In this document: positions 16,001-28,684 of the stretch, one piece after another | How positions within the stretch are numbered: the stretch's first letter is position 1 | Layout: each line of letters starts with the position of its first letter | NCBI GenBank assembly: GCA_903893625.1 | Contig: CAITND010000272.1 | Span: 1-51,071 of the forward strand | From: an uncultured Oscillatoriales cyanobacterium | GTDB lineage: Bacteria; Cyanobacteriota; Cyanobacteriia; Cyanobacteriales; Microcoleaceae | Direction of reading: 5' to 3' | DNA: 51,071 nucleotides | The notes under the pieces: model-generated | Seen by the model: only the letters and a program-made list of their open reading frames with translations | The model's database searches: none | Told to the model about the DNA's origin: nothing | Position numbers and translations under genes: made by a program

Positions 16001-17294
16001 TAATGCGATAGGCTTTAACAATCACATCTAAATCATCAGCATGGATGAAACATGGTAACTGATTTCCGATTAATTCTTCGGGTTCATATCCTAATAACGT
16101 GCGACAAGCCGGAGACGCATATAAAAATACTCCTTCTGGAGAATGGCGGGTAATCATATCTGTTGAATTTTCCGCCATTAATCGATAGCGTTGTTCACTT
16201 TCCTGACCTTGAAATTGGGCATCGGCTAAGGCTTGTAACATTCCATTAATGGCTTCTGCCAAACTCGATAATTCATCCTTTCCTGCTACGGAAATTCTCA
16301 AGGCTAAATTTCCACTTTCCCCGATTTCGTTAACTGAACTATTCAAAGCAGTCAGTCGAGAAAGCACTAATTTTTCTAATAATAAGAGGGTAATTCCTCC
16401 GAAAATTAACCCCACGACTAATAAAAATAAACTGAAATAGCCTAAAGTGGTTTGACCTTGTTGATAAATTGGACGATCAACTTGAACTTGTAAAGATAAT
16501 TTTGGTTCCCCATTCAAATCTGCGATCGTGGCTGATGCGATCGCGATTTCTGCATTTAGGGGGTGCAACCGAATGGCTTGAGAATTGATAATTGCTTCCG
16601 TATATGGTTGAATTTGAGGAGATAATAGAAAGGGATTACTAGCCATTCCCTCAGAAATGGGCTCAAGAGTCAAGGACAGTTGGGTAATTTCAGCTAATCG
16701 TTGCAGTTCCGGGGCGTCGAGATAACGTCCTAAAATCAATAATCCTCGACTTGGCCCCGATGCGGTACTGGTTAAAATCGGTCGGGAAACCACTAACAAA
16801 GGACTTTCGGGTAAAACAATAATTCCTTGAATGGGAGAGGGAATTAAATTCAGTTGTTTGAGACTCGCTAAAAGTGGACTATTTAAGGTAAGATGCGAAG
16901 ATAGACTGGGGGGAATCGGTGTTTCCTGACGGCGTTGCGAATCAAACCCCTTACTAAAAACAATTTCACCCTTGGGGTTCATCAGAATAAATAGGTTCAG
17001 CCGTAAATCGGCGAAGGTGGTATCAACTAAGTTAGAAACCACATATTGGCGGTTTTGAGCATCAATAAACCGATAGGTATCATCCCATTTAGCCTGATCC
17101 TGGGCGATCAAATCCAAACTATCTAAGTCATCATTAATCGCATTTAAGGCCCGCACAATATCTTGACGGACATACTGGTTTTCTAGTTGGCGAAAATCAT
17201 GCACCAGCAGCATCGAGGCGGTAATATACATCGCCACGATTAACCCAATCAGGGCTGCACCAATAATCAGCAGTGTTTTCTTTCGCAATTTCAT
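13008..17294 (-). CDS. Hybrid sensor histidine kinase with two receivers and an HPt domain
   Basis: 1428 aa. Order: membrane helix (about 7-30), CHASE4 sensor (about 32-280, with QDQAKWDDTYRF), second membrane helix (about 285-307), HAMP, PAS (about 370-490), GAF (about 500-670), HisKA with the phosphorylated His H690 in 'MSHEIRTP', HATPase_c ('VNLLSNAVKF', 'DTGIGI', 'GGTGLGLAISKRL'), REC1, REC2 with acceptor D1194 ('ILMDMQMPEMDG'), and a C-terminal HPt with His near 1362 ('AAHSLKSISGTLG'). It is an unorthodox phosphorelay kinase in the inner membrane; the stimulus is unknown. In REC1 the acceptor position is Glu (E1040 in 'IIEMQM'), so this receiver is probably not phosphorylated. REC2 contains about ten extra residues at 1220-1229 encoded by a 28-bp palindromic repeat. 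No dedicated response regulator is adjacent. Confidence 0.92.
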   Translation of the reverse strand: MKLRKKTLLIIGAALIGLIVAMYITASMLLVHDFRQLENQYVRQDIVRALNAINDDLDSLDLIAQDQAKWDDTYRFIDAQNRQYVVSNLVDTTFADLRLNLFILMNPKGEIVFSKGFDSQRRQETPIPPSLSSHLTLNSPLLASLKQLNLIPSPIQGIIVLPESPLLVVSRPILTSTASGPSRGLLILGRYLDAPELQRLAEITQLSLTLEPISEGMASNPFLLSPQIQPYTEAIINSQAIRLHPLNAEIAIASATIADLNGEPKLSLQVQVDRPIYQQGQTTLGYFSLFLLVVGLIFGGITLLLLEKLVLSRLTALNSSVNEIGESGNLALRISVAGKDELSSLAEAINGMLQALADAQFQGQESEQRYRLMAENSTDMITRHSPEGVFLYASPACRTLLGYEPEELIGNQLPCFIHADDLDVIVKAYRIILQQNVIYTIEYRISHKNGDYIWFETTSSAIRDITTGSVQEIIGVSRDITERKQREQQLQDSESSIRALYQITSCQEFTFETRLQQILELGCAKFGLEYGILSHVKINILPSEDGQELNSTYQIIAVFAPNQSIQAGQIYKLEDTFCKITIQAKQPLYFESIKFSGLSFCPAHKILPIEAYMGTPVIVGGDVYGTLCFWSSQALSEPFQAVDRDLLKLMAQWIGGEIERQETASALAKARDQALAATRAKSEFLATMSHEIRTPMNAVIGMTGLLLDTTLTPMQQDFVETIRSSSDALLCLINDILDFSKIESGKLDLENHPFNLRTCIEESLDLLVTKAASKNLDLAYLIDPCTPNQIIGDMARLRQILVNLLSNAVKFTDTGEVVVSVTAEKLDDPSNDQSQSLEKYKDKDSSINPSISCSLYEIKVAVQDTGIGISLNGMDRLFQSFSQVDSSINRQYGGTGLGLAISKRLAELMGGQMWVESRGAMAGDPPANFKLEQSLDSFCILEGEGTDEDENKTEKITETRQGSTFYFTVVAQSCSNLSPEWSTLHELAGKRLLIVDDNVSSRQMLKLQTQAWGMSSQTVKNGVRALEWLQRKQFDIAIIEMQMAAMDGLTLAKQIHQLPSCQNLPLILLTSVGGNFLGKSKSIEIAACLNKPIKQSQLYNVLINILGGEPLEVHVQSQTYLHSRNRGTLRSSQDIPLLAEKLPLRILLAEDHLVNQKVALQILQRMGYRADVAGNGFEVLEALRRQRYDVILMDMQMPEMDGLEASRQIQKLYGNPQKSVETCHGTSLLRPRIIAVTANAMESDRNECMKAGMDDYISKPIRMEQLIQVLSKCQPLQDIPVTLDSETTNYKPLNVTLNQQLPLTIITSNPTILDAKVLQGLREIEALEEVIEIYFDTAPELLEAIAIAIANIDAKELQPAAHSLKSISGTLGAFSLSEQCQKLETLAHHCNQTQNPLSLAESETIYTQIQTEFEQVKIALQEELRIKN
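13610..13637. repeat. 28-bp perfect palindrome inserted in frame in the kinase gene
   Basis: Half-site GTAGAGACGTGCCA; the sequence equals its own reverse complement over all 28 bases. A degenerate relative lies at 48256-48282 between genes. In the kinase it encodes part of VETCHGTSLLRP (residues about 1220-1229) in the loop before the REC2 'IIAVTANAM' strand. Confidence 0.95.
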
Positions 17295-17649
17295 GGCGGT
17301 GTTACCTTAAGGCTTGCTGTTTGGCAATGAACGAGGTTGTATTTGCACCCATCCTCTAAAGACAACGATTCTGCATAAGCGTAGATGCGAAAATTAACAG
17401 TTACACGGGTTTCAATCGCTGAACCGTATTTCCACTGAAATCAATTCCTATCCTCATTGTATCTTGGCTTTTGGAGTCCGTAGAGATGTCGGTTGGGGCC
17501 TTTCGGCATCGCTTTGTTTAGAGGGGTCTAAACAGGAGTTAAGCGTTAAGGTTAAAAGTTAATATTTTATTTTTCCTCAGATTTATTTTTATTGATAATT
17601 ATTAATTGAGTTCAATTAATAATTATCAAGTTTAGAATAGAGTTGGGAC
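17295..17649. other. Gene-free region upstream of the kinase with a long perfect hairpin
   Basis: About 355 bp between the kinase start and the DUF4079 stop. It should contain the kinase promoter, but no clear -10/-35 pair stands out. The only structure seen is the 18-bp-stem hairpin at 17592-17629. The rest shows no coding frame. Confidence 0.6.
17592..17629. repeat. Perfect 18-bp inverted repeat with a 2-base spacer
   Basis: Arms TTGATAATTATTAATTGA (17592-17609) and its exact complement (17612-17629), separated by GT. It lies 20 bp beyond the DUF4079 stop. There is no T-tract in the minus direction, so it is not a classical terminator. It may be a protein-binding palindrome, a repeat, or an mRNA-stabilising hairpin. 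Confidence 0.85.
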
Positions 17650-18087
17650 TTAAGGTAAATATTTCTGTACGATCACCCACCCGGATAAAGACACCGCAGT
17701 AAAAGCAAAAAATAAACCCATATTTAGGCTAATATGGAGCGATCGCGCCCAAGGATTTTTAGGATTAATTTGGGTTGCACTCCAAGCCGATCCTAACACT
17801 AAACTCACCACAATTAATCCGGCGGCTAGATGAATCGAATGTCCTAAACTTCCATAATACCCAAGAGTTCCCACTAAACCAATGGCGAGTAAAGCCAAGA
17901 CTAAACAAACCATCCCCCCCCCGACAAAATAATGGAGAGTTCTCAGTTGTTTAGGTCGAGGTTGTTGATTTTTGCGAGAATACAGCATCCATCCCCCCGT
18001 TATCGCTAATATCAGGTAAGCGAAGACAGAACATCCCATTGACCAAGCTGCAATTTTCCACAACCACAAAAACGAAGGTAAATTCAT
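17650..18087 (-). CDS. DUF4079 family membrane protein (complete copy)
   Basis: 145 aa with four predicted membrane helices (about 8-30, 48-70, 80-100, 115-140), including 'HYFVGGGMVCLVLALLAIGLV' and 'HISLNMGLFFAFTAVSLSGWVI'. This matches the cyanobacterial DUF4079 family, whose function is not established; the conserved histidines recall small haem-binding membrane proteins. Its first 255 bp (17833-18087) are repeated at 26980-27234 on the far side of the drm-like operon, with 12 mismatches in my alignment. The upstream sequences of the two copies differ from the base after the ATG outward. This copy begins 129 bp after the drmB-like gene ends, on the same strand. Confidence 0.85.
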   Translation of the reverse strand: MNLPSFLWLWKIAAWSMGCSVFAYLILAITGGWMLYSRKNQQPRPKQLRTLHYFVGGGMVCLVLALLAIGLVGTLGYYGSLGHSIHLAAGLIVVSLVLGSAWSATQINPKNPWARSLHISLNMGLFFAFTAVSLSGWVIVQKYLP

Positions 18088-18216
18088 AAGAGGGATTTAA
18101 ACGAATTAAATAGATTTTATAGAAGGTTGTCTGTTTTTACTTTTGCCGATAAAGGTTATTTGATTTGCAGAAAGTTTCTATCATTGATAAAGAGGGTAGC
18201 TAACCTATATTTAATG

Positions 18217-20274
18217 TTAATCCAAATTGCCATCCCATAAACCAATAAAATCCTTTGTTCCAATTAAATCCGATAAATTAGGGTTTTTCCAGAGTGTTTT
18301 CGTGACTCCAGCATCTTCTGTTTCAGCACTAATATCTCCGCCATAAAGCAATATCCGGCTGAGAGCATTATTAAACAGGCGACAGACAACTTCTGGTAAA
18401 TGCAAACATCCATTACAAGCTCCACCTAAACTCTCCTCGCAATACGGATCAAACATACAGTCTCCACGCTCTTCTAAGAGACTCTTAAATGCCTGATCTA
18501 AACGCTGTTCAAAGAAAGTTTTTAGTCCCCCCAGGGAAAACTCTTGCAGACGATTTACAAAAATTATAGTTTGGTTGAGACTAAACAGCAAATGCTCAGA
18601 AAGAGCGGTTTCACCGAAGCTACTTTGATCAGCGATCGCTTTAATTAAAAGATGATTAGCACTATGGATTGCTGAACTGACTAACCAAGGAATCCGAAAA
18701 TCTGGAGACAAATTATCATCAAAAGCTGGCCCACAACGGCTCGTAATTCGACTGTGACGCTCCAAAAGCCAAAGCGTCGGTTCTTTGATAGTTTTTGGAT
18801 CGGGAGCTAAATTATTGGCGTGGAGCCATTTGACAATCCGTTGAGCATCAAACTGGAATAAAAGTGCCTCTGTTGCTAGTTTATAAACAGGCATAGGAAT
18901 CCAGTTTCCCTTGGGTTCGTCACCCGCTAAATCAAAGTTTTTCCGGTCAAATGCCCACAAAACAGACGCTTCTGGTTGGTGAGAGAGGCGAGTATATCCA
19001 TAAGCTAGATGCAAAACGGGTAAGTCTTGAATAATTGTAACTTGACTAATTCCTAAGCTCTTCCGCATTAAATTCCCTGCGGCTTGTAAATTAGTGCAGA
19101 AAGAAGAGTTAATTCTGCCTAAATCTTTGACCGTATCATCAAGAGTTTTACGGTCTAAATCCATGATCACGGCATAGTCACTCAGTTGTTCTCGAAGAGT
19201 ACGAGCATTTTCCTGGGCTGTTGTTAAGTTTTCTCTGCGATCGCGCGTTTCTCTTTCTGCTTTAGCATCTCCTAACAGTTGTTTTGTGCTAGGAGAAAGT
19301 TGATTTAGTGCTTTTCTTAAATTCGCAACAATTGGGCCACCTGCATCACTCTCCTGAACTTGTTTTCTATTTGCTAAAATATTGTTAATTGTTGCTTCAT
19401 CTAACCCGCTCATTTCCAGGGTTTTAATTAATTGCTCTAACTCCTTTTGGTCTGCCTGTGTTCCTTGACCCAGAACTCGAATTATTTCAGTGATTTCAGA
19501 AATATTTTTACCTTGGCTATTAAAATAAATTAAATGGATTGCTAAAAGAGTAGAAAGTGATTCTTCATAAGCTAAAAACTTTTCAACATTGGGAGTAGGA
19601 TTAATTCGAGAAATAGAATGAACAACCTGAAGTTTTTTGTCAGAAACATTAGTTAATGTCATCATTGGACTTGGTGGTTTCCCCGTTTTTTCCTCTATAG
19701 AATTAGCTACATCAGGGCGCTTCATAATCGATTGGTTTGCTAGAGAACGGGATATTGTTTCTGCATGATTACAGCCCTCCACCTTACACCGCCAACGTTT
19801 TTGATAACCTCTTTCTAAGACTAAATATTCTAAATTATGATCGGGACAAACCCTGGGGATTAATTGAACCATTGTGCCATCAGCATGAGCAAAAACAAAC
19901 GGTATTTCATTCAGGGTAGAATGACCGCACCGATGGCAAGGAGCATCGGGATCTGATCTCCATTGCTTCATGTAACGAATTGCTCCACATTTAGCACATT
20001 CACGGACTTCTAATTTTTTTCCCTTCACTAATTGAGTTGTCACAAAAACACATTCTGCTGTGGATTTTCGGAAAGCCTCCATCTGAGCATCTAAATGCTT
20101 CCATCGGGTTAATTCTTGCCTAACAGTATCCTGTAAATTCCTACCCAAATCATTAACTTTGCGTGCATAATGTTTAATAATTTCAAGGGTTCCGATTGGA
20201 ATTGTTGCAACACTTCCTGGTTCAAATCGGTGTAAAACTTGCCCTTTAGATCGGGTATAAGCTTGTTGATTCAT
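18217..20274 (-). CDS. drmB: DrmB-like DUF1998 protein (DISARM-type)
   Basis: 685 aa. The N-terminal part has a zinc-ribbon pair 'CAKCGAIRYMKQW' and 'PCHRCGHSTL' (about residues 98-130), further Cys/His sites ('VCPDHN', 'CKVEGCNH'), a long helical middle region, and a C-terminal DUF1998 module with the cysteine cluster 'CMFDPYCEESLGGACNGC'. This architecture is that of DrmB, partner of the DrmA helicase in DISARM, and of related MrfB-type proteins. In DISARM, DrmA and DrmB form a complex that binds and acts on incoming phage DNA. It is the last gene of the operon, 25 bp after the helicase gene, with a GGAGAGAG ribosome-binding site before the ATG at 20274. The expected drmC (phospholipase D-like) gene does not follow. 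Confidence 0.8.
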   Translation of the reverse strand: MNQQAYTRSKGQVLHRFEPGSVATIPIGTLEIIKHYARKVNDLGRNLQDTVRQELTRWKHLDAQMEAFRKSTAECVFVTTQLVKGKKLEVRECAKCGAIRYMKQWRSDPDAPCHRCGHSTLNEIPFVFAHADGTMVQLIPRVCPDHNLEYLVLERGYQKRWRCKVEGCNHAETISRSLANQSIMKRPDVANSIEEKTGKPPSPMMTLTNVSDKKLQVVHSISRINPTPNVEKFLAYEESLSTLLAIHLIYFNSQGKNISEITEIIRVLGQGTQADQKELEQLIKTLEMSGLDEATINNILANRKQVQESDAGGPIVANLRKALNQLSPSTKQLLGDAKAERETRDRRENLTTAQENARTLREQLSDYAVIMDLDRKTLDDTVKDLGRINSSFCTNLQAAGNLMRKSLGISQVTIIQDLPVLHLAYGYTRLSHQPEASVLWAFDRKNFDLAGDEPKGNWIPMPVYKLATEALLFQFDAQRIVKWLHANNLAPDPKTIKEPTLWLLERHSRITSRCGPAFDDNLSPDFRIPWLVSSAIHSANHLLIKAIADQSSFGETALSEHLLFSLNQTIIFVNRLQEFSLGGLKTFFEQRLDQAFKSLLEERGDCMFDPYCEESLGGACNGCLHLPEVVCRLFNNALSRILLYGGDISAETEDAGVTKTLWKNPNLSDLIGTKDFIGLWDGNLD

Positions 20275-20299
20275 AAACTCTCTCTCCGATAAAAATTAA

Positions 20300-23200
20300 T
20301 TAGTAACCCGTAATTTGAATCCCTGCATCAACATCCCGCAAAGATAACAGTAAGCGAAACTCATTAGACCTATCATCTTGTGTGAGAGCGCTTGTTACTT
20401 GTTTAGATTCGTTAGGATTTTGTACGATGCGATCAATTTGAGATATAAAAGCATTTTCTACCTTGCTTAAGGGTATTTGAAAAACCTCGCCTTCTGGCAA
20501 GCAATCTGGATTAAGAGTAGCATTAATTTTGTTAATTACCGCACTAATATTAATCGCTGAACGTCCTTTCCCAATACCATGAATTAGCTCTCGTAGTTTA
20601 TCAATTTTATCTAATTCTGCTAAATCGATTTCCTGATTTCCTGATCGCGCCGTAGGGCCATCAATGTGTAATAAACGCCCAAGTAACAACCCAAAAGCTG
20701 TTCGATACAGTGCATTGTGAGCAAAGCGGTCAATGGGAACAGTTTCCACCATTTGATCTAAATATTCATGGGCTTTTGCAAAATAATCGAAAATTGATCT
20801 TTCACGATTGCGTTGCGGTCTGAATAAAATAAACACTAAACCAGGAACAGTTCGTCCAGCCCGACTTGATGCTTGGATATATTCAGCCGTTGTATTAGGC
20901 CATCCATAGAATAACATTAAATTCAGTCGGTCAATATCCACACCATGAGAAATTAAACTGGTTGCGACGACATCCGATAATTTTTCTGGGTCATCCGGTT
21001 GTAAATTTCTCTGGGGTGTTTCCATACGTTTGAGAACAGCTTTCACAACATCAATGCCATCATCTCCAGAAAGCGTGATGGCTTCTGGAAGCATCGTATT
21101 TGCTTGATTTTCTCCAAATTGTTCCCTCAATACGCCTTTTACTTGTTCATTAATAGAACGGCGAATATCAGACCCATCATTTTTTGAGTTCACATAAGTA
21201 CAGCAAAGATTATGCTCATCAACTAACTGCAAAAATTCATCATCCGTTAAAGAATTGAGTCCATACTCAATCTTATATTTGGTCGGTTCATGACGAATGA
21301 TTTCTAACTCGGTTCGCAACGCTAAAAGTAGAGCCATTGACGCATCAAGAGCATTTGCCGCTGTTGGGCGTAGTCCCACAAAACCTCTAGTTACATAACG
21401 GCTATGTTCATTGGCATAAAAACTCCGCCCCTGAGCAGGCCCTCTGACGGGAAATTGAGAGAGTTCTCGCCAGTAAAGATGCCGGATTTGTTGTTCTGCT
21501 CCCTCAATGGTAGCGGTTGCAGCTAAGATTTTAGGGCGGTTAGCTCCTCGTTCTTGGTGAATCGCATCAATGAGAGCTTCATAATGACCATCAAACGTCC
21601 CTAATTCTTCGCGTAGAAGGTGTAGTTCATCCTGAAAAATCAGGGGGATACCAGGGTCAACAGGTGGTGTGGAGAGAGGTTTTAAATCTCGACGAGTACA
21701 TCCCCCCACAGAATTTTGTTTGTGACAAGTACAGTTAGCGACAAAACCATGTACTGAGCAAATATGTGATACTGCACCGAATAAAGTTCGACTCGCAGGA
21801 CGGAAGGTAATATTAGCAATTTTATCGAGAGTTCCGACTAACAAAGTCGGTAATCGGCTATAAATATCTTCATCAACAATATAAAGGGGAATTTCACGAC
21901 CGCAAGCTCCTTTAGGTAAAGGTTCATTGAGAGAACCACAGCGATGCCGAAGTTCTTTAGTTTTTGGATCGATAAAAGTATGAACATTTTCTGATCCGCA
22001 ATAAGGGCAACGCATCACCATACAATATTGCTGGATAGAGTTAGGAACATAATAGCCAACATCCGCTAATGTTAAATATTTAGGCGGTGTTATACCCGCA
22101 GCCTGCATTTGCTTTCTAGCTTGTCCTATGTACTTTTCAGCTTCGCTAGGAACAGATTTAAGAGAATTAGGGCTATTATCTCGACCGCCATAATAACCTA
22201 CTGTAAATTCGGGGGTTTTAGCTAAATCTGGCTGGTTTTTTCTGATTTCATCAGCAACAACTAAAGTATCTAAAAAGCGTTGTAATTGTTGATAAGTTAA
22301 TAAGCGCAAAGGATACCGTAACCAAGCCACAATACCCCAATCTCGACCTCGCAAGCGGTCAAAAAAGGCTTGAGTTAGAATAATGCCCATTACCGCTTCA
22401 GATTTACCACCGCCTGTTGGGAAATGAACCACAGCAGCATGGTCAACCTGTGCTAATGGATTGTTATCAAAATCTCCAGTCCATTCTCGTGCTGCTAAAG
22501 ATGCTAGGTTAGAAACAATATAAACAATCTGAAAAGGTCGCCAGTTTTCATAAGCTGATTTCTGACGCTGTTTGCGTTTCTCGTCAATTTCAGCGAACGT
22601 TTGGTTCATTAAATTAAAAGCTCGCCTCAACTGTGCATATTTAGGATTGGATAAAACCTCAATTCCAAGTTGAAAACGGCTAATCTCCTGTTTAAAATTA
22701 TCTAAATCTGCTTGAGCTTCAGCACTATGTTTAGTCCCTCCTGTTTGTGGATGTTTTTGGTTAATTAATGCTTGCCAATTATCTCGATATTCTTGCATCT
22801 TTTGCCAGATTGCTCGAAGTACCTGAAGGTCAGCATCTCCATCAGTTTTTGCTAAATTATTAAAAGGTGCTTGAATGCCAGCAGTATAAAGTCTTTTTTG
22901 CCAATAAATCGGTAAAAATTCAGTCCAGATTTGAACTATATCGGGAGTCTTCTCATCAAATTGTGGTGTACAGTTAATTCCTTGAGCGGGAACAGTAGAA
23001 TCAACTTGATAAGAAATCTGAAATCGAGATAATTCTATAGGTTGCCAAATGGGTTTAGGTAATTTAATTTTTAGGCAAGCTCCAAATAAACCTGTATCTC
23101 TTGGATCTACAAAATCTTTAATGGGTTCGCTTTTATTTCTCAAAAATAAACGGAGTCTCGTCTGACCTCCTAAATTTCGCTTTTGCACTTCTACGGTAAC

Positions 23201-24274
23201 TTTAAAGTTAACAGGAGCAACTTGCCCTGGCTGAATCTCATTGTCAATAGACGGACTATCGCTCTTGTTGTTATTCTTTTTATTCCCTATTCGCTTACGG
23301 AGTTCAGCTTGTAATTTTTTATTGTTTTCTTTGGCAAAGGTAACTTCTTCCTCTGTCAAATCATCAATTGTTGGCTTGAGTTTAAATAGCCAAGTTAGTG
23401 CATCAGTCTGATGTGCTTCAGTTATGTTTTTGAGTTTTTCTGTAATATCTTGATTCAGTTTGGTAACAGTAGGAGAATTATCAATTAATAAATCTTGAAT
23501 AGTAGAAGTGATATTAGCACTGATATCAAAACGCTGCCACATTGGACGGAGTGACTTTTCATCCACTTTACTTAAATCGAGCTTAGGGAGGAAAACACTA
23601 AAACGAATTTTTAACTCGATAGGTAACTGCTGTTTATCCCAGTCTGGTGCTAAGTTAATTGCTAAACCACAGTCACTTGGACGAAAATTATTTTGCTGAT
23701 CACTGCTGACTGTTGAAGTGGCAGGTAGCGGCGATAGGTAGCCAGTTGGCATCAATCTTCGAGGTTCCGTTGAACCTCTGATCACGCTTCGATGGTCAGA
23801 TGTTCCTGTGATATGACCCCGGATGCGCTGATAAAAACTTTTAACAAACTGTAGGTGTTTTTCTTGTCTGTTAGAATCAGAGACATTTAACCCTTCATCA
23901 GTCAGAATTGATTCAGGATTAGTGGATAAAGAGGGATGGGAATAATTATTAATCATGTCTGAGGGTTTGAAAGGTTTTTGTAAAGCTAATGCTTGTTCTA
24001 CAGTGCCAAAATCTCCAACTTCTTGAGGTAGATTAACGCGATCGCCCTGATAAACGTGGCGAACTAGGTTCATGACTTCAGCAACAATATGTTGGTTAAA
24101 TTTAAAAGTTTCTCCAAAATCATCCTCATAGCTGATAATTTGTAGCTGACGATTGCCAATTTGATCAACTTTTCGAGAAAATGTAAACTCTTGTTGATCA
24201 TCTCCAATCAACATCCAGACTTTGAGGAAATCGTTGTTAGGTACAGACTCAATGTTCAAAACGTGAGCTTTCAT
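20300..24274 (-). CDS. drmA: DrmA-like superfamily 2 helicase (DISARM-type, YprA-related)
   Basis: 1324 aa, within the usual size of DrmA. Motif I is 'FPTGGGKSEAV' with K624; motif II is 'FQDELHLLREELG' with D882 (DELH rather than DEAH); motif III is 'AATATIEGA'; motif VI is 'QASSRAGRTVPGLVFILF' near residue 1140. Between motifs I and II lies a cysteine-rich insert ('CPYCGSENV', 'HRCGSLNEPLPKGACG', 'CTCHKQNSVGGC') that should bind zinc. The approximately 550-residue N-terminal region resembles no domain I can name. The ATG overlaps the stop of the upstream peptidase gene by four bases (ATGA), so the two are translationally coupled; AGGAAAG precedes the start. In DISARM this helicase with DrmB blocks phage DNA. 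Other YprA-family systems (Druantia, Dpd) are less likely because of the DrmB partner. Confidence 0.82.
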   Translation of the reverse strand: MKAHVLNIESVPNNDFLKVWMLIGDDQQEFTFSRKVDQIGNRQLQIISYEDDFGETFKFNQHIVAEVMNLVRHVYQGDRVNLPQEVGDFGTVEQALALQKPFKPSDMINNYSHPSLSTNPESILTDEGLNVSDSNRQEKHLQFVKSFYQRIRGHITGTSDHRSVIRGSTEPRRLMPTGYLSPLPATSTVSSDQQNNFRPSDCGLAINLAPDWDKQQLPIELKIRFSVFLPKLDLSKVDEKSLRPMWQRFDISANITSTIQDLLIDNSPTVTKLNQDITEKLKNITEAHQTDALTWLFKLKPTIDDLTEEEVTFAKENNKKLQAELRKRIGNKKNNNKSDSPSIDNEIQPGQVAPVNFKVTVEVQKRNLGGQTRLRLFLRNKSEPIKDFVDPRDTGLFGACLKIKLPKPIWQPIELSRFQISYQVDSTVPAQGINCTPQFDEKTPDIVQIWTEFLPIYWQKRLYTAGIQAPFNNLAKTDGDADLQVLRAIWQKMQEYRDNWQALINQKHPQTGGTKHSAEAQADLDNFKQEISRFQLGIEVLSNPKYAQLRRAFNLMNQTFAEIDEKRKQRQKSAYENWRPFQIVYIVSNLASLAAREWTGDFDNNPLAQVDHAAVVHFPTGGGKSEAVMGIILTQAFFDRLRGRDWGIVAWLRYPLRLLTYQQLQRFLDTLVVADEIRKNQPDLAKTPEFTVGYYGGRDNSPNSLKSVPSEAEKYIGQARKQMQAAGITPPKYLTLADVGYYVPNSIQQYCMVMRCPYCGSENVHTFIDPKTKELRHRCGSLNEPLPKGACGREIPLYIVDEDIYSRLPTLLVGTLDKIANITFRPASRTLFGAVSHICSVHGFVANCTCHKQNSVGGCTRRDLKPLSTPPVDPGIPLIFQDELHLLREELGTFDGHYEALIDAIHQERGANRPKILAATATIEGAEQQIRHLYWRELSQFPVRGPAQGRSFYANEHSRYVTRGFVGLRPTAANALDASMALLLALRTELEIIRHEPTKYKIEYGLNSLTDDEFLQLVDEHNLCCTYVNSKNDGSDIRRSINEQVKGVLREQFGENQANTMLPEAITLSGDDGIDVVKAVLKRMETPQRNLQPDDPEKLSDVVATSLISHGVDIDRLNLMLFYGWPNTTAEYIQASSRAGRTVPGLVFILFRPQRNRERSIFDYFAKAHEYLDQMVETVPIDRFAHNALYRTAFGLLLGRLLHIDGPTARSGNQEIDLAELDKIDKLRELIHGIGKGRSAINISAVINKINATLNPDCLPEGEVFQIPLSKVENAFISQIDRIVQNPNESKQVTSALTQDDRSNEFRLLLSLRDVDAGIQITGY

Positions 24275-24783
24275 AGTTCTTTCCTGTAAATTCCTTGCAT
24301 CGTCCAGAACTGTAAAAATTCCTCTTTATCCATTGTATACCTAACGCCATCCCAAGGGTCTTTGATGAGGATTTTCCAAAGACTATCCAAACCATCAATA
24401 ACGACTAAGTGACCCAGGCGCGCTTCTGGTTCTCGAAGTTCTGCTATCCAAGATCCTTCGCCAATTAATAGCTCTAACACATCCCCAGAATTGGCTCCTG
24501 GGATCTCCAAGTATCCCCCAACCCACTGTCGTGAATCACTTGGATCTAGTTGATTCAGGGTCTCTGCTAACCCAGAAACATTTACAGGCGTTTCCCCAAT
24601 ACTAGCAATATTCTCCTGATTGATGTGACTGATTCCCTGTTCTCTCAGTAGCATCTCACCACAGGCTGGGCCACAAGAGAGGCAATCTTGCTGTTTGATC
24701 ACCGTTGGGTCATCGACTTCATCAATAACTTGCCAATTCCCACCTGCACCAGAAAGTTCAAGGGTTAAGTCGTCAGTATTCAA
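24271..24783 (-). CDS. Papain/C39-like cysteine peptidase in the DISARM-like operon
   Basis: 170 aa. The catalytic pattern is that of C39-like papain-fold peptidases: oxyanion Gln (Q31/Q32) and C37 in 'QQDCLSCGPACGEMLLREQG', H125 in 'LGHLVVIDGLD' and D142 in 'IKDPWDG'. The fold fills the whole protein, with no signal peptide or membrane segment, so it should act in the cytoplasm. The start is a TTG at 24783, chosen because AGGAG lies four bases upstream and no ATG fits. The gene overlaps drmA by ATGA. Peptidases are not among the core DISARM genes I know, so this may be an effector or a maturation/regulatory protease; the target is unknown. An inactive toxin-like or ubiquitin-like-processing role cannot be excluded. 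Confidence 0.7.
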   Translation of the reverse strand: MNTDDLTLELSGAGGNWQVIDEVDDPTVIKQQDCLSCGPACGEMLLREQGISHINQENIASIGETPVNVSGLAETLNQLDPSDSRQWVGGYLEIPGANSGDVLELLIGEGSWIAELREPEARLGHLVVIDGLDSLWKILIKDPWDGVRYTMDKEEFLQFWTMQGIYRKEL

Positions 24784-24972
24784 TCGTCTCCTAAGCGTAG
24801 CTAATCAGTAAAATAGTTAATGCGTCCAAGTGGTATCTAAAGTACAGTTATAGATATTTTTAGTACAAAAATACCCTATTTTTGATTAAATCACTGGTTG
24901 AGCTTACAGGTCAAGGAACTTAGATATCACTCTATCATTGAGAAGCTCAGACAATAGTATTAGTTAAATTAA
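24784..24972. other. Intergenic gap inside the defence operon
   Basis: 189 bp between the 112-aa gene and the peptidase gene, the only large gap in the operon. It is AT-rich, with no coding frame and no clear T-tract hairpin. It could hold a second promoter for the peptidase-drmA-drmB part, which would allow separate control of the two halves. Confidence 0.45.
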
Positions 24973-25311
24973 CTAATCTGCTGATTTTCTAAAAAGACGA
25001 TTAAAGGGAAATTCAGGGGGATGAGAAATTAGTTTAGGTGGACACTGAACTTTGAGGATCTGCATTGCTTCTTGTAATTCACCAACGGTGATAAAAACTT
25101 GCTGATATTGAAAGACAATTTCATCAGGTTTTCTATTTTTCCATCCTTCTTGAGCGCAAGTAGAGATAACTTGACCGAGTTGTCTTCGTGTAATTCGGAG
25201 TTCATTCACTTTTTGCCAGAAGTCTTCAAAACCTGAACGAGCTAATGGCAGTATAAACCAAAAGAAATGTTCCCTTTCACAAGGTAAACTTAAAAGGTTA
25301 TCACCACTCAT
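24973..25311 (-). CDS. Unrecognised 112-aa protein, second gene of the defence operon
   Basis: 112 aa, no family recognised. It is mostly helical, with 'CEREHFFWFILPLARSGFEDFWQKVNELRITRRQLGQVI' followed by 'DEIVFQYQQVFITVGELQEAMQIL', and a basic, Pro-rich tail. There is no signal peptide, membrane segment or obvious catalytic motif. Its ATG overlaps the stop of the 508-aa gene by four bases, so the two are translationally coupled and probably work as a pair. A small adaptor or regulator is possible but not shown. Confidence 0.75.
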   Translation of the reverse strand: MSGDNLLSLPCEREHFFWFILPLARSGFEDFWQKVNELRITRRQLGQVISTCAQEGWKNRKPDEIVFQYQQVFITVGELQEAMQILKVQCPPKLISHPPEFPFNRLFRKSAD

Positions 25312-26834
25312 CCAGTTATACTGAATTGTTTTTTCACTAATGGGTAGACCTGTATCACTAAAAATATCGATAAATTGCTATTACTTCCCATTAAAAATTG
25401 CTCTAAGGCATTAGCTATTTCCGCATTTTCTACAGCTACAGTAGTTGCTAAATTTTCTATTTTAATAATTTCTAGGAAAGGATTAGATTTAAGTTTATAT
25501 AACCTCATAGCTAAGGAATTTAAGCTATTAAATAAAATTAATGCTTTTGATTCTTTACATTTATTAGAAGCCAATTGCAAACGCTTAAATGAGCTTTCAA
25601 GAAATTTACCCCAGAGATGATGAAAAGGTAATACTGGTGCTGAAAGATGTCGCCAAATTTCCCATCCGGTAGCCCAAACATTTCTCAAATTAGGCTGGTG
25701 CGCTAAATCAAGCAGTAAATCCGAAGTTTCTATAAAAAGTTCAGCAATTGTTTCTTCATCGTCTGTCTCAAAGCTAAAAGTTTTAATAATCACCTCTGCT
25801 TCTTTTAGAGTAGCTCGTTTTTTTTGCAGAATTAAATAACTTTCGTCTATGGGATGATGAGCTACATGATTGCTAAAAAGACTAGGTTCTTTTGGATAGG
25901 AGCAGAGCGCAAAAAAGTCAATAGGCCAAAGTTTAATTCCTAAAAATTTTTGGTTCTCATGGTACTCAATATCTTTCATACTCCAAGGGGGAACTATACC
26001 CACCATCGGAATTTGTTTTTGTTGACAAATAGCTCCTAACTCAAAAGCTTTTTTTCCCAAGATAGATGGGGATGGATCAGTAGATCCAGATGGGTCATCA
26101 AGTACAACTAAAGAACAATAATTAGATTGCTTCAAAAATTCAATAGCTTCTGAGAGAGAGCGTACCATAAAAACTCTCCGTTGTTCCCGATAATAGGGTT
26201 CTGATATTTTGTAGGAAGGTAGACAAGTAATTTTTTGTCTTAGATCAAAATGAGTGTCTTCTTTGTCCACTAGATTAAAGGCGTTCGTTGTCCTCAAACG
26301 AAGAATTTGACCATTATCTTTTGGGCGAACCCAAATAATAAAAGCCTTTGAAAAGAAGGAGTTAGCGATATGAGCAAAATAAACAACTGTCAAACTTCCT
26401 AATGAAACAGGAGAAATAGGAAAGCTAATAAAAATTTGAGACCGCTTCTCAATACTCATAGCAATCAAATAAAGTAAGTCTTTTTCTAACTGATGAATTG
26501 CTATTGAGTGCTTGTTCATTTTTAAACACCCCAATATTGGATCTAATACTGATAGTGTCTTTTCCCAAGGAAAAGCCGAGCGAAGAACGTCTCCCCATGC
26601 CTTTATTTCCACAATTTTAGGTGTCTTTATCGACTCAGAGGGGGTTATATATTTTGAGGCTGAAATTTCACCCACGCATTCTGATGATTGCTCTGCTGAT
26701 GGTTTTTGGGGTACTGTTCTCGGCTCTAAATTTTTTGGAAAAGTATCTTTCCATGACGGATCTGCTGCTACTAGCTTTGAGTAGTTTATCCCAAACCTTA
26801 TTTTGAAAATTTCTTCTGGCGATAGATCTGACAT
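25308..26834 (-). CDS. Unrecognised 508-aa protein, first gene of the defence operon (DrmE-like position)
   Basis: 508 aa with no signal peptide. The N-terminal 90 residues are variable and Ser/Pro-rich. The middle looks like an alpha/beta domain: 'LEKDLLYLIAMSIEKRSQIFISFPIS', 'SKAFIIWVRPKDN', 'CSLVVLDDPSGSTDPS' (a strand ending in DDPSG, reminiscent of a Walker B strand but without a visible Walker A), and 'QIPMVGIVPPWS'. The C-terminal 180 residues are helical. I do not recognise a family. Class 2 DISARM loci encode drmE, a large protein of uncertain fold, so a divergent DrmE is possible. The ATG at 26834 has only a weak ribosome-binding site. The operon promoter should lie in 26835-26979, where TATAAA at about 26860 (minus strand) is a candidate -10. 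Confidence 0.7.
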   Translation of the reverse strand: MSDLSPEEIFKIRFGINYSKLVAADPSWKDTFPKNLEPRTVPQKPSAEQSSECVGEISASKYITPSESIKTPKIVEIKAWGDVLRSAFPWEKTLSVLDPILGCLKMNKHSIAIHQLEKDLLYLIAMSIEKRSQIFISFPISPVSLGSLTVVYFAHIANSFFSKAFIIWVRPKDNGQILRLRTTNAFNLVDKEDTHFDLRQKITCLPSYKISEPYYREQRRVFMVRSLSEAIEFLKQSNYCSLVVLDDPSGSTDPSPSILGKKAFELGAICQQKQIPMVGIVPPWSMKDIEYHENQKFLGIKLWPIDFFALCSYPKEPSLFSNHVAHHPIDESYLILQKKRATLKEAEVIIKTFSFETDDEETIAELFIETSDLLLDLAHQPNLRNVWATGWEIWRHLSAPVLPFHHLWGKFLESSFKRLQLASNKCKESKALILFNSLNSLAMRLYKLKSNPFLEIIKIENLATTVAVENAEIANALEQFLMGSNSNLSIFLVIQVYPLVKKQFSITG

Positions 26835-26979
26835 TGATCTTATTTTTTTACCCTTTATTCTTTTTTATACCTTGTCATTAGCTCTAGTATACCAATGTCA
26901 GAACAGCTTAACTGGGAACAGTAAGCCGTGATGAGTTTCAGGATTTAGAAGTGTCCTAACTGTAATGCGTAGTGCTATA

Positions 26980-27234
26980 AATCGAATGTCCTAAACTGCC
27001 ATAATATCCCAAGGTTCCGACTAAACCAATGGCGAGTAAAGCCAAAACTAAACAAACCATCCCCCCCCCGACAAAATAATGGAGGGTTCTCAGTCCTTTG
27101 GGTCGAGGTTGTTGATTTTTGCGAGAATATAGCATCCATCCCCCCGTTATCGCTAATATCAGGTAAGCGAAGACAGAACATCCCATTGACCAAGCTGCAA
27201 TTTTCCACAACCACAAAAACGAAGGTAAATTCAT
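26980..27234 (-). pseudogene. Truncated DUF4079 gene fragment (5' 255 bp), right repeat of the island
   Basis: Encodes the first 85 residues of the DUF4079 protein (MNLPSFLWLW... to YYGSLGHSI), then runs into unrelated codons and stops near 26956. The third and fourth membrane helices are missing. Compared with 17833-18087 there are 12 substitutions and no gaps, several of them silent. The fragment keeps an ATG but has a different upstream sequence. It is best read as the stranded start of the gene into which the island was inserted, or as the remainder of a duplication. Confidence 0.85.
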
Positions 27235-27340: not shown

Positions 27341-28684
27341 AAAGCCCCGTCCTTTAGCGAAGCGGAGGACGGCTTTTTATTTTAAATTAATGTATAATAG
27401 AATAAATTAAATCAACAAAAACATGAAAGCCAGATATCGTTTCAGATGCTACCCAAGACCCTCCCAAAAATTGGCATTAGCCAAATTATTTGGGTGTGTG
27501 CGTGTAGTGTGGAACGATGCTCTGGCTTTCTGTGTTTCCGAATACAAAGGAGGTAAAAAGAAACCGAAGAACGCCGAACTACAAAAACAATTCATCACTC
27601 AAGCTAAAAAATTAGAAGAACGGGAGTGGTTATCGGAGGTATCAGCAGTTCCACTTCAACAAAGCTTAAATGATTTAGAGCAAGCTTACTCAAACTTTTT
27701 CGCATCCTGCAAAGGAAATCGGAAAGGTCAAAGAGTTAAACCACCGAAATTTAAGAAGCGGAAATCTAAGCAATCTGCTCGATTTGTAAAGACTGGGTTT
27801 TCCATCAAAGGAGAGAAGGTTTATCTCGCCAAAATCGGTAAAATTAAAGTGGTTTGGTCAAGAGAACTTCCTTCTGAACCCAGTTCAGTCACAGTCATCA
27901 AAGACAGTGCTGACCGCTATTTCCTGAGTTTTGTTGTAGAAATTCAACCCGAAATCTTGCCTCAATCTGAAAACTCAGTGGGGATTGATTTAGGGATTAA
28001 AACTTTTGCAACATTAAGTAATGGACAAAAAATAGAAGCTCCTAAACCGCTTAAAAAACAGATTCAGAAGCTTCGTAAATTCTCTCAACAATTATCTCGG
28101 AAAACCAAAGTGTCAAAACGTCGTGAAAAAGCTAGAAAAAGATTAGCTAGACTTCACGCTAAGTTATCAGATATCCGAACTGATTTTCTGCATAAATTAT
28201 CAACTCAGATCATTCGTGAGAACCAAACAATTGTTCTGGAAGACTTAAATGTGTCAGGAATGGTTAAAAACCGGAAATTATCAAGAGCTATTTCAGATTT
28301 AGGATGGAGAACATTTAGAACATTCCTCGAAGCTAAATCTGAAAAGTATGGTAGAGATTTCCGAGTTATCAATCGATGGGAACCAACATCAAAAAAATGT
28401 TCCTGTTGCGGGTTTAAAGTCGCTAAATTAGACCTTTCAATCCGAGAATGGATTTGTTTGAATTGTGGCGAATCTCGTGATAGAGATATTAACGCTGCAA
28501 TTAATATTAAGGTCGCCGGAGGGCTTTCGGAGACTGTAAACGGACGTGGAGGCAAGCGTCAGACTACAGCTATTTGTAGCAGCAGCCAGCGAAGCGTCAA
28601 CCCACCAGCATTTCAACAATTGTCAATATTTGATTTGTTGAAATAGATGGAATCCCCCTCGTTCTACGCGGGGGCGGATGTCAA
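27341..28684 (+). mobile_element. Solo-tnpB insertion sequence (IS200/IS605 superfamily, IS1341-type)
   Basis: The left end carries the hairpin GCCCCGTCCTTTA/GGAGGACGGC (27344-27373). The right end carries CCCCCTCG...CGGGGG and closes with GGATGTCAA (28651-28684), a form typical of this superfamily in cyanobacteria. Only tnpB lies inside; tnpA is absent, so movement would need a transposase from another copy. It lies 106 bp from the DUF4079 fragment. Exact ends are approximate. Confidence 0.8.
27423..28646 (+). CDS. tnpB: TnpB RNA-guided endonuclease
   Basis: 407 aa, normal for TnpB. An N-terminal helix-turn-helix segment (YRFRCYPRPSQKLALAKLFGCVRVVWN) is followed by the RuvC domain: D189 in 'GIDLGIKTFA', E273 in 'IVLEDLNVSGM' and D355 in 'RDRDINAAINI'. 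The zinc-finger pair 'CSCCG' and 'CLNCG' lies between the last two. All three catalytic acids are present, so the nuclease should be active. TnpB proteins use a guide (reRNA/omega RNA) transcribed across the element's right end and cut donor or target DNA, which keeps the element in place. The C-terminal tail after 'KVAGGLSETVNG' is likely to overlap the omega RNA sequence. Confidence 0.92.
   Translation: MKARYRFRCYPRPSQKLALAKLFGCVRVVWNDALAFCVSEYKGGKKKPKNAELQKQFITQAKKLEEREWLSEVSAVPLQQSLNDLEQAYSNFFASCKGNRKGQRVKPPKFKKRKSKQSARFVKTGFSIKGEKVYLAKIGKIKVVWSRELPSEPSSVTVIKDSADRYFLSFVVEIQPEILPQSENSVGIDLGIKTFATLSNGQKIEAPKPLKKQIQKLRKFSQQLSRKTKVSKRREKARKRLARLHAKLSDIRTDFLHKLSTQIIRENQTIVLEDLNVSGMVKNRKLSRAISDLGWRTFRTFLEAKSEKYGRDFRVINRWEPTSKKCSCCGFKVAKLDLSIREWICLNCGESRDRDINAAINIKVAGGLSETVNGRGGKRQTTAICSSSQRSVNPPAFQQLSIFDLLK

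Follow-up and report, generated by a model that had tools for sequence, protein, structure and literature searches.

A homologue of Cpe1-type protease toxins next to an immunity-like domain fused to DrmA in a cyanobacterial class 2 DISARM locus that has decayed

What is to be made of a DISARM-like operon (DISARM, defence island system associated with restriction-modification) in which drmA and drmB are preceded by a papain-fold peptidase gene and by two open reading frames (ORFs) that belong to no recognisable family? The question is raised by a stretch of 51,071 nucleotides from an uncultured Oscillatoriales cyanobacterium (assembly GCA_903893625.1, contig CAITND010000272.1, positions 1 to 51,071), here called the window, in which five ORFs, all on the minus strand, are confirmed at 18217-26834. 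An earlier account made from the letters alone, the sequence-only reading, took them for a single operon and possibly a new DISARM-related subtype with a proteolytic effector and two new components, proteins of 508 and 112 amino acids (aa). The five ORFs, their overlaps, the motifs, the drmA-drmB pair and the C39 peptidase all stand, and the treatment of the 508- and 112-aa ORFs as two genes does not. The locus is a decayed derivative of class 2 DISARM, not a working DISARM, and we consider it likely that it encodes a toxin held by an immunity domain of DrmA. The parts of the operon are the following:

25308..26834, minus strand: 5' part of drmE (508-aa ORF), about 480-490 codons in the DrmE frame and then an out-of-frame tail
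25364..25366, minus strand: deletion junction within drmE, about 700 bp gone and the frame lost, from blastn blocks against the related locus L114
24973..25311, minus strand: 3' part of drmE (112-aa ORF), whose ATG corresponds to a Met codon inside DrmE
24271..24783, minus strand: homologue of the papain-like (C39) protease toxins of the Cpe1/CdiA-CT type, 170 aa, TTG start, triad C37-H125-D142
23966..24274, minus strand: immunity-like domain (Cpi1/CdiI fold), residues 1-103 of the DrmA ORF
20300..23965, minus strand: linker (residues 104-119) and helicase core of DrmA, PADLOC DrmA 1.8e-112
18217..20274, minus strand: DrmB, 685 aa, PADLOC DrmB 4e-23

The peptidase matches the Pfam C39 family at 8.3e-6. 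On its own, it retrieves with phmmer the structure 9l5u (1e-23) and the CdiA chains 12aj (1.7e-22) and 8ssm (3.3e-22), and a profile of nine cyanobacterial C39 homologues reaches 12aj, 8ssm, 9l5u and 8ssk at 1.5e-35 to 3e-35, against 0.012 or worse for the C39 domains of exporters (ABC transporters). Of these structures, 12aj and 8ssm are deposited as contact-dependent inhibitor A; 9l5u, the title of which names a papain-like cysteine protease toxin/immunity pair, is equated here with the Cpe1-Cpi1 pair from that title; and 8ssk is deposited as the fimbrial usher StbD, with the identical toxin sequence at its end. Cpe1 of E. coli cuts GyrB and ParE behind the sequence LHAGG; its neutraliser, Cpi1, attaches to a hydrophobic exosite (PMC12136450; this and the other PMC records are cited from excerpts). 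The matches point to membership of the window peptidase in the Cpe1-type toxin family, with putative toxicity. Its Cys37 was aligned by hand to the cysteine of 9l5u taken as Cpe1 C362, and one offset fits all six named exosite letters. Of 39 aligned homologues, 37 have Cys37, His125 and Asp142 intact, the four DISARM copies among them, the exceptions being L129, which has Ser in place of the catalytic His, and L135; furthermore, the TTG start and its GGAGACGATTG context are kept in all four DISARM loci.

The resemblance to Cpe1-Cpi1, a pair known from type VI secretion systems (T6SS) and contact-dependent inhibition (CDI) (PMC12136450; 9l5u, 8ssm, 12aj, 8ssk), lies in a toxin domain that is homologous and has the triad in common, and in a small adjacent partner of similar predicted fold. 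Cyanobacteriota are listed among the phyla with T6SS-associated Cpe1 homologues (PMC12136450), and in one cyanobacterial locus (L132) an RHS-repeat protein (PF05593, 1e-102) has the C39 domain at its very C-terminus, a construction typical of delivered toxins. Unlike these, the window peptidase is a stand-alone ORF of 170 aa with no T6SS or CDI delivery domain or carrier, its partner is fused to a defence helicase, and exosite residues are changed. The Tox-PL-C39 domain (PMC3482391) is likewise a papain-fold toxin domain akin to C39/ComA peptidases; in the excerpt it is described in polymorphic and secreted toxins, not in an antiviral operon.

Where, then, is the immunity protein? It appears to have become part of the helicase: the N-terminal domain of DrmA, which the sequence-only reading did not mention, has a predicted fold closest to that of the immunity chains in 9l5u and 8ssm, and the peptidase does have an adjacent Cpi1-like partner in this form. 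The partner adjoins C39 in 40 of 40 places, 31 of them found by the C39 profile, and the tree distances of C39 and partner are correlated (r = 0.77 over 39 pairs, with 0 of 2000 permutations as high). The remainder of the ORF is DrmA itself, with GGGKS, DELH and QASSRAGR in its translation and, beside the PADLOC score, an NCBIfam DrmAS match at 5e-118 (396 bits, under the 950-bit cut-off); DrmB likewise has an NCBIfam match (2.7e-15) under the cut-off. The assignment of drmA and drmB made earlier is upheld by the PADLOC matches, with the reservation that the Pfam DUF1998 profile, by which DrmB had been named, does not match it at E values up to 1. Measured against the Calothrix locus L006, the ratio of nonsynonymous to synonymous substitution rates is 0.10 for DrmA and 0.09 for DrmB.

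Is the arrangement peculiar to the window? Relatives were sought in overlapping sets of genomes: C39 matched in 36 of 388 genomes of the order, L114 DrmA in five of 388 genomes of the class at 1e-100, and L004 DrmA in 27 of 386 genomes of the phylum at 1e-30; two of ten genomes from the family of G507 gave a match, one scan of genome contigs gave two loci, and 86 plasmid records were matched by tblastn, of which one was close. The nearest DISARM relatives to emerge are L004 (plasmid pMIC7113.01 of Allocoleopsis franciscana), L005 (a Symploca metagenome-assembled genome, MAG), L006 (a Calothrix MAG) and, later, L114 and L115 (genomes G507 and G518 of one genus). The window drmA and drmB are close to those of L004 and of L155; the DrmA of L004 is 77% identical. 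In L006, L114 and L115 a C39 gene (170-172 aa) directly precedes drmA with a 4-nt overlap, as in the window (24271/24274), DrmA (1315-1323 aa) begins with the partner domain, and C39 and the fused drmA lie between an intact drmE and drmB. The sequence-only reading had advised a search for the same gene order across cyanobacteria; its view of the peptidase as part of the unit and not a passenger is borne out by these three loci. The toxin and the fused partner are absent from the DISARM loci L004, L005, L154 (genome G755) and L155 (genome G764). With the near-identical L114 and L115 counted as one lineage beside the window and L006, the arrangement is present in three lineages, between which the partner domain is 61-76% identical, versus 85-88% for the DrmA core of the window against L006, L114 and L115. 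In the partner tree the four domains linked to DISARM group together as a clade (support 0.84), which suggests that the toxin/partner pair was probably acquired by DISARM once; the C39 tree shows this less clearly and has stand-alone copies mixed in among the DISARM ones. The operons of L114 and L115 are near-identical save for DrmB (79% identical), and drmB seems to have been exchanged by recombination.

And what are the 508- and 112-aa ORFs, for which neither Pfam nor PADLOC nor NCBIfam offers a match at E values up to 1? At this position L004, L005, L006, L114 and L115 have a single protein of 811-830 aa in one open frame, namely DrmE. The 508-aa ORF aligns to residues 33-454 of the L006 DrmE (811 aa) at 57% identity and the 112-aa ORF to its residues 680-807 at 74%; the latter ORF covers the last ~110 residues of DrmE and is 88% identical to the C-terminus of the L114 protein. 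The blastn blocks join window 26549-25366 to L114 5300-6513 and window 25364-24901 to L114 7218-7681, so that 704 nt of L114 (6514-7217) face a single nucleotide in the window and the frame is lost. With the L006 DrmE as query, only residues 33-454 and 680-807 are found in the genome to which the window belongs (5.83 Mb, 99.8% complete), both in the window, and the middle part is found nowhere in it. The two ORFs are the two ends of one broken drmE. The sequence-only reading had itself allowed that an ordinary DrmE in place of the 508-aa protein would undo the case for new components, and a DrmE, albeit a broken one, is what was found. Because both ORFs align to one 811-aa protein, their ATGA overlap (25308/25311), which had been read as a sign of a functional unit, is a by-product of the deletion, not operon design. 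As for the identity of the intact proteins, those of L005, L114 and L004 match the NCBIfam DrmE_fam at 6e-15, 4e-10 and 2e-9, all under the 80-bit cut-off; the L006 DrmE has no NCBIfam match, and those of L004, L005 and L006 have no PADLOC match. The DrmE of L115 was left out of the family scans, and the proteins of the relatives are mutually homologous at 64-98% identity.

Class 2 DISARM ('type II' of PADLOC) is drmC-drmMII-drmE-drmA-drmB, and all five are present in L004 and L155, in the order drmC, C5-methylase, drmE, drmA, drmB (by tblastn for L155, the DrmA match of which has one stop). The fused loci differ from this layout in the toxin gene between drmE and drmA, in the immunity-like domain on DrmA and in drmC, which was not detected in L006 (where the stretch begins at the methylase), L114 or L115; these three have methylase, drmE, drmA and drmB. 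L005 retains only the C-terminal end of a methylase, and L154 is cut by a contig end within drmE. NCBIfam scores the methylases of L004, L006 and L114 as DNA cytosine-5 enzymes, and for those of L004 and L006 generic type II models outscore DrmMII in PADLOC. The window locus differs further, with its broken drmE and no methylase: DrmA and DrmB are there, and an intact DrmE, DrmMII and DrmC are not. None of the five ORFs is drmC or a methylase by Pfam, PADLOC or NCBIfam, as the sequence-only reading had said. The whole genome gave no DrmC match with the L004 DrmC as query (a search that had no positive control) and only distant methylases at 28-41% identity, with no methylase trace upstream of drmE. 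The suggestion that the lack of a methylase marks the subtype finds no support, given that L006, L114 and L115 have one. For a call of type II DISARM, PADLOC asks for DrmA, DrmB, DrmC, DrmE and DrmMII together (PMC9252829), and the window would accordingly not count as a complete DISARM; for the DISARM-derived operon any anti-phage activity is putative. An incomplete set of DISARM genes is described in an Antarctic cyanobacterium as well (PMC9716671). A helicase core of the YprA/DrmA family is also common to ARMADA, BRIGADE and the other YprA-helicase systems, and ARMADA/BRIGADE-type systems share other genes with DISARM (PMC12458937).

The scenario that we consider likely runs as follows. A class 2 DISARM locus in a cyanobacterial lineage would have gained, in the space between drmE and drmA, a Cpe1-type toxin and the immunity protein that goes with it, and the immunity gene would then have turned into the N-terminal domain of DrmA. 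The poison would be the C39 peptidase, through the cutting of an essential protein (GyrB or ParE in the case of E. coli Cpe1), and the N-terminal domain of DrmA would bind and hold it, such that control of the toxin would depend on the presence and the state of DrmA; with DrmA lost, degraded or occupied, free toxin would arrest growth. The toxin would in this way guard the operon, and in the intact relatives it may give DISARM a growth-arrest arm. The state of the window, in which toxin, immunity-DrmA and DrmB are intact despite the broken drmE and the absence of drmC and drmMII, is as expected if loss of drmA is unsafe. In this scenario the homologies, the fusion, the shared gene order and the deletion are observed, and toxicity, neutralisation by DrmA and release are inferred. 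A defence locus can then decay and yet keep a poison-antidote core, which bears on the reading of 'incomplete' DISARM loci.

In its bolder form, which we put forward tentatively and lean against, the hypothesis is one of a suicide switch in DISARM: the DNA-sensing DrmA would carry the antidote of a co-encoded toxin, and a phage that activates, inhibits or destroys DrmA would free a protease that halts DNA replication. If true, interbacterial toxins and immunity directed at DNA would be connected in a general way, with the McrBC-linked copies described below as a second case. DISARM is usually described as DNA-targeting, with a helicase complex, a methylase and a nuclease, and a toxin gene beside the helicase with the antidote fused to it would unite two arsenals mostly studied separately. 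Among the papers listed by our literature searches, none links the Cpe1-type toxin family to DISARM. In the text searched, neither 'phage' nor 'defense' occurs in PMC12136450, none of protease, peptidase, C39 and DrmE in the YprA/ARMADA preprint PMC12458937, and none of C39, protease and papain in PMC11090510, a census of McrBC/CoCoNuT.

Several observations weigh against this bolder form. The break in drmE is observed in a single genome, and the drmE remnant shows no clear extra relaxation. C39-partner pairs are scattered over cyanobacterial genomes (C39 in 36 of 388), 14 of the 56 C39 places match fewer than 130 of 165 profile positions (contig ends may explain some), three further near-full C39 copies carry a stop, and PADLOC families are not enriched near the stand-alone pairs relative to arbitrary stretches; these pairs look like toxin-antitoxin modules. 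Furthermore, where the Cpe1 exosite has M426 and W428, the window peptidase has, read by hand, E115 and R117; the exosite Trp is present in 19 of 39 homologues. With the exosite residues changed, the target may not be GyrB. LHAGGKF, a candidate cleavage site, occurs once in the genome, in an ORF that resembles GyrB by eye. In the GyrB-like ORF of this genome (L148, G000:C68), an insert after EGDSAGG looks like the start of a putative intein.

Could the pair then be a pure addiction passenger, a selfish module of the toxin-antitoxin kind that landed in DISARM, its fusion to DrmA accidental, preserving drmA and playing no role in phage defence? This is the alternative that survives best, a serious contender that in our judgement falls somewhat short of probable. 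The scattered pairs, the partial C39 copies and the lack of PADLOC enrichment around stand-alone pairs all fit it, as does the persistence of toxin and immunity-DrmA in the window after the loss of DrmE. It is opposed by the fusion and gene order, which three or more lineages have retained (in two of these DrmE is intact and a methylase present), and by the McrBC-type neighbourhoods: at L129 the pair is beside McrBC-type genes (AAA_5 and McrC-type), at L126 it is near AAA_5 only, within the stretch examined and with another ORF between, and at L051 the partner alone is beside AAA_5 and McrC-type genes.

A triggered effector, in which DrmAB on phage DNA, or a phage protein striking DrmA, would free the protease and stop growth as an abortive arm, is possible and in our estimate doubtful. 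The immunity domain would sit on the DNA-binding subunit of a complex whose shape alters when it is activated (PMC9142583), and the arrangement is kept in three loci with intact drmE, leaving room for a switch. The release, however, would in the window have to work without DrmE, and the conformational change reported for Serratia DrmAB has its centre at DrmB and the C-terminal end of DrmA rather than at the N-terminal end. A processing role for C39, the maturation of a DISARM protein or peptide as in bacteriocin exporters, is very unlikely: the fold family is the same (Pfam Peptidase_C39), but the peptidase is far nearer to the CDI/T6SS-type toxin chains than to ABC-transporter C39 domains, its pairing with the partner is constant, and the five ORFs of the operon include no transporter. 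Hardly anything now speaks for a new subtype of DISARM that would add two proteins, since the 508- and 112-aa ORFs, open and joined by an ATGA overlap as they are, prove by the DrmE alignments to be the two ends of one DrmE with a deletion of about 700 bp between them, which refutes two new genes unless the pieces work as a split protein. The suggestion of a proteolytic effector fares better, being close to the reading preferred here, in which the peptidase is a toxin homologue, once the new subtype is set aside.

Two other places deserve mention. A second C39-partner pair of the same genome, on the opposite strand (L048, G000:C62:25910-26709), has a VMAP-C gene on one side and on the other an AAA (MoxR-like) gene with a GUN4-vWA gene after it. 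On one contig of another genome (G202:C224), a DrmA homologue (16797-18989) lies about 7 kb from a C39-partner pair (26222-27012), with no fusion.

Finally, how did the operon come to lie where it does? It is bracketed in its entirety by direct repeats of 258 nt that are 95% identical (17830-18087 and 26977-27234):

17650..18087, minus strand: DUF4079 gene (Pfam DUF4079, 1.3e-34) with one repeat copy (17830-18087)
26977..27234, minus strand: partial second copy, the 5' part of the DUF4079 gene, as the outer direct repeat of the island

The DUF4079 gene has one copy in eight of nine genus relatives, and G004 has three copies. The island may have entered with, or may exit by, recombination between the 258-bp repeats. 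Past the outer repeat, the window has no match to the stretches from five relatives, and an IS605-type TnpB gene (27423-28646; Pfam OrfB_IS605, 1.4e-33) adjoins this repeat. An intergenic stretch of about 60 bp (26919-26979) is 84% identical over 63 bp to one close to the histidine kinase gene of a relative (L043) and is perhaps a small mobile repeat.

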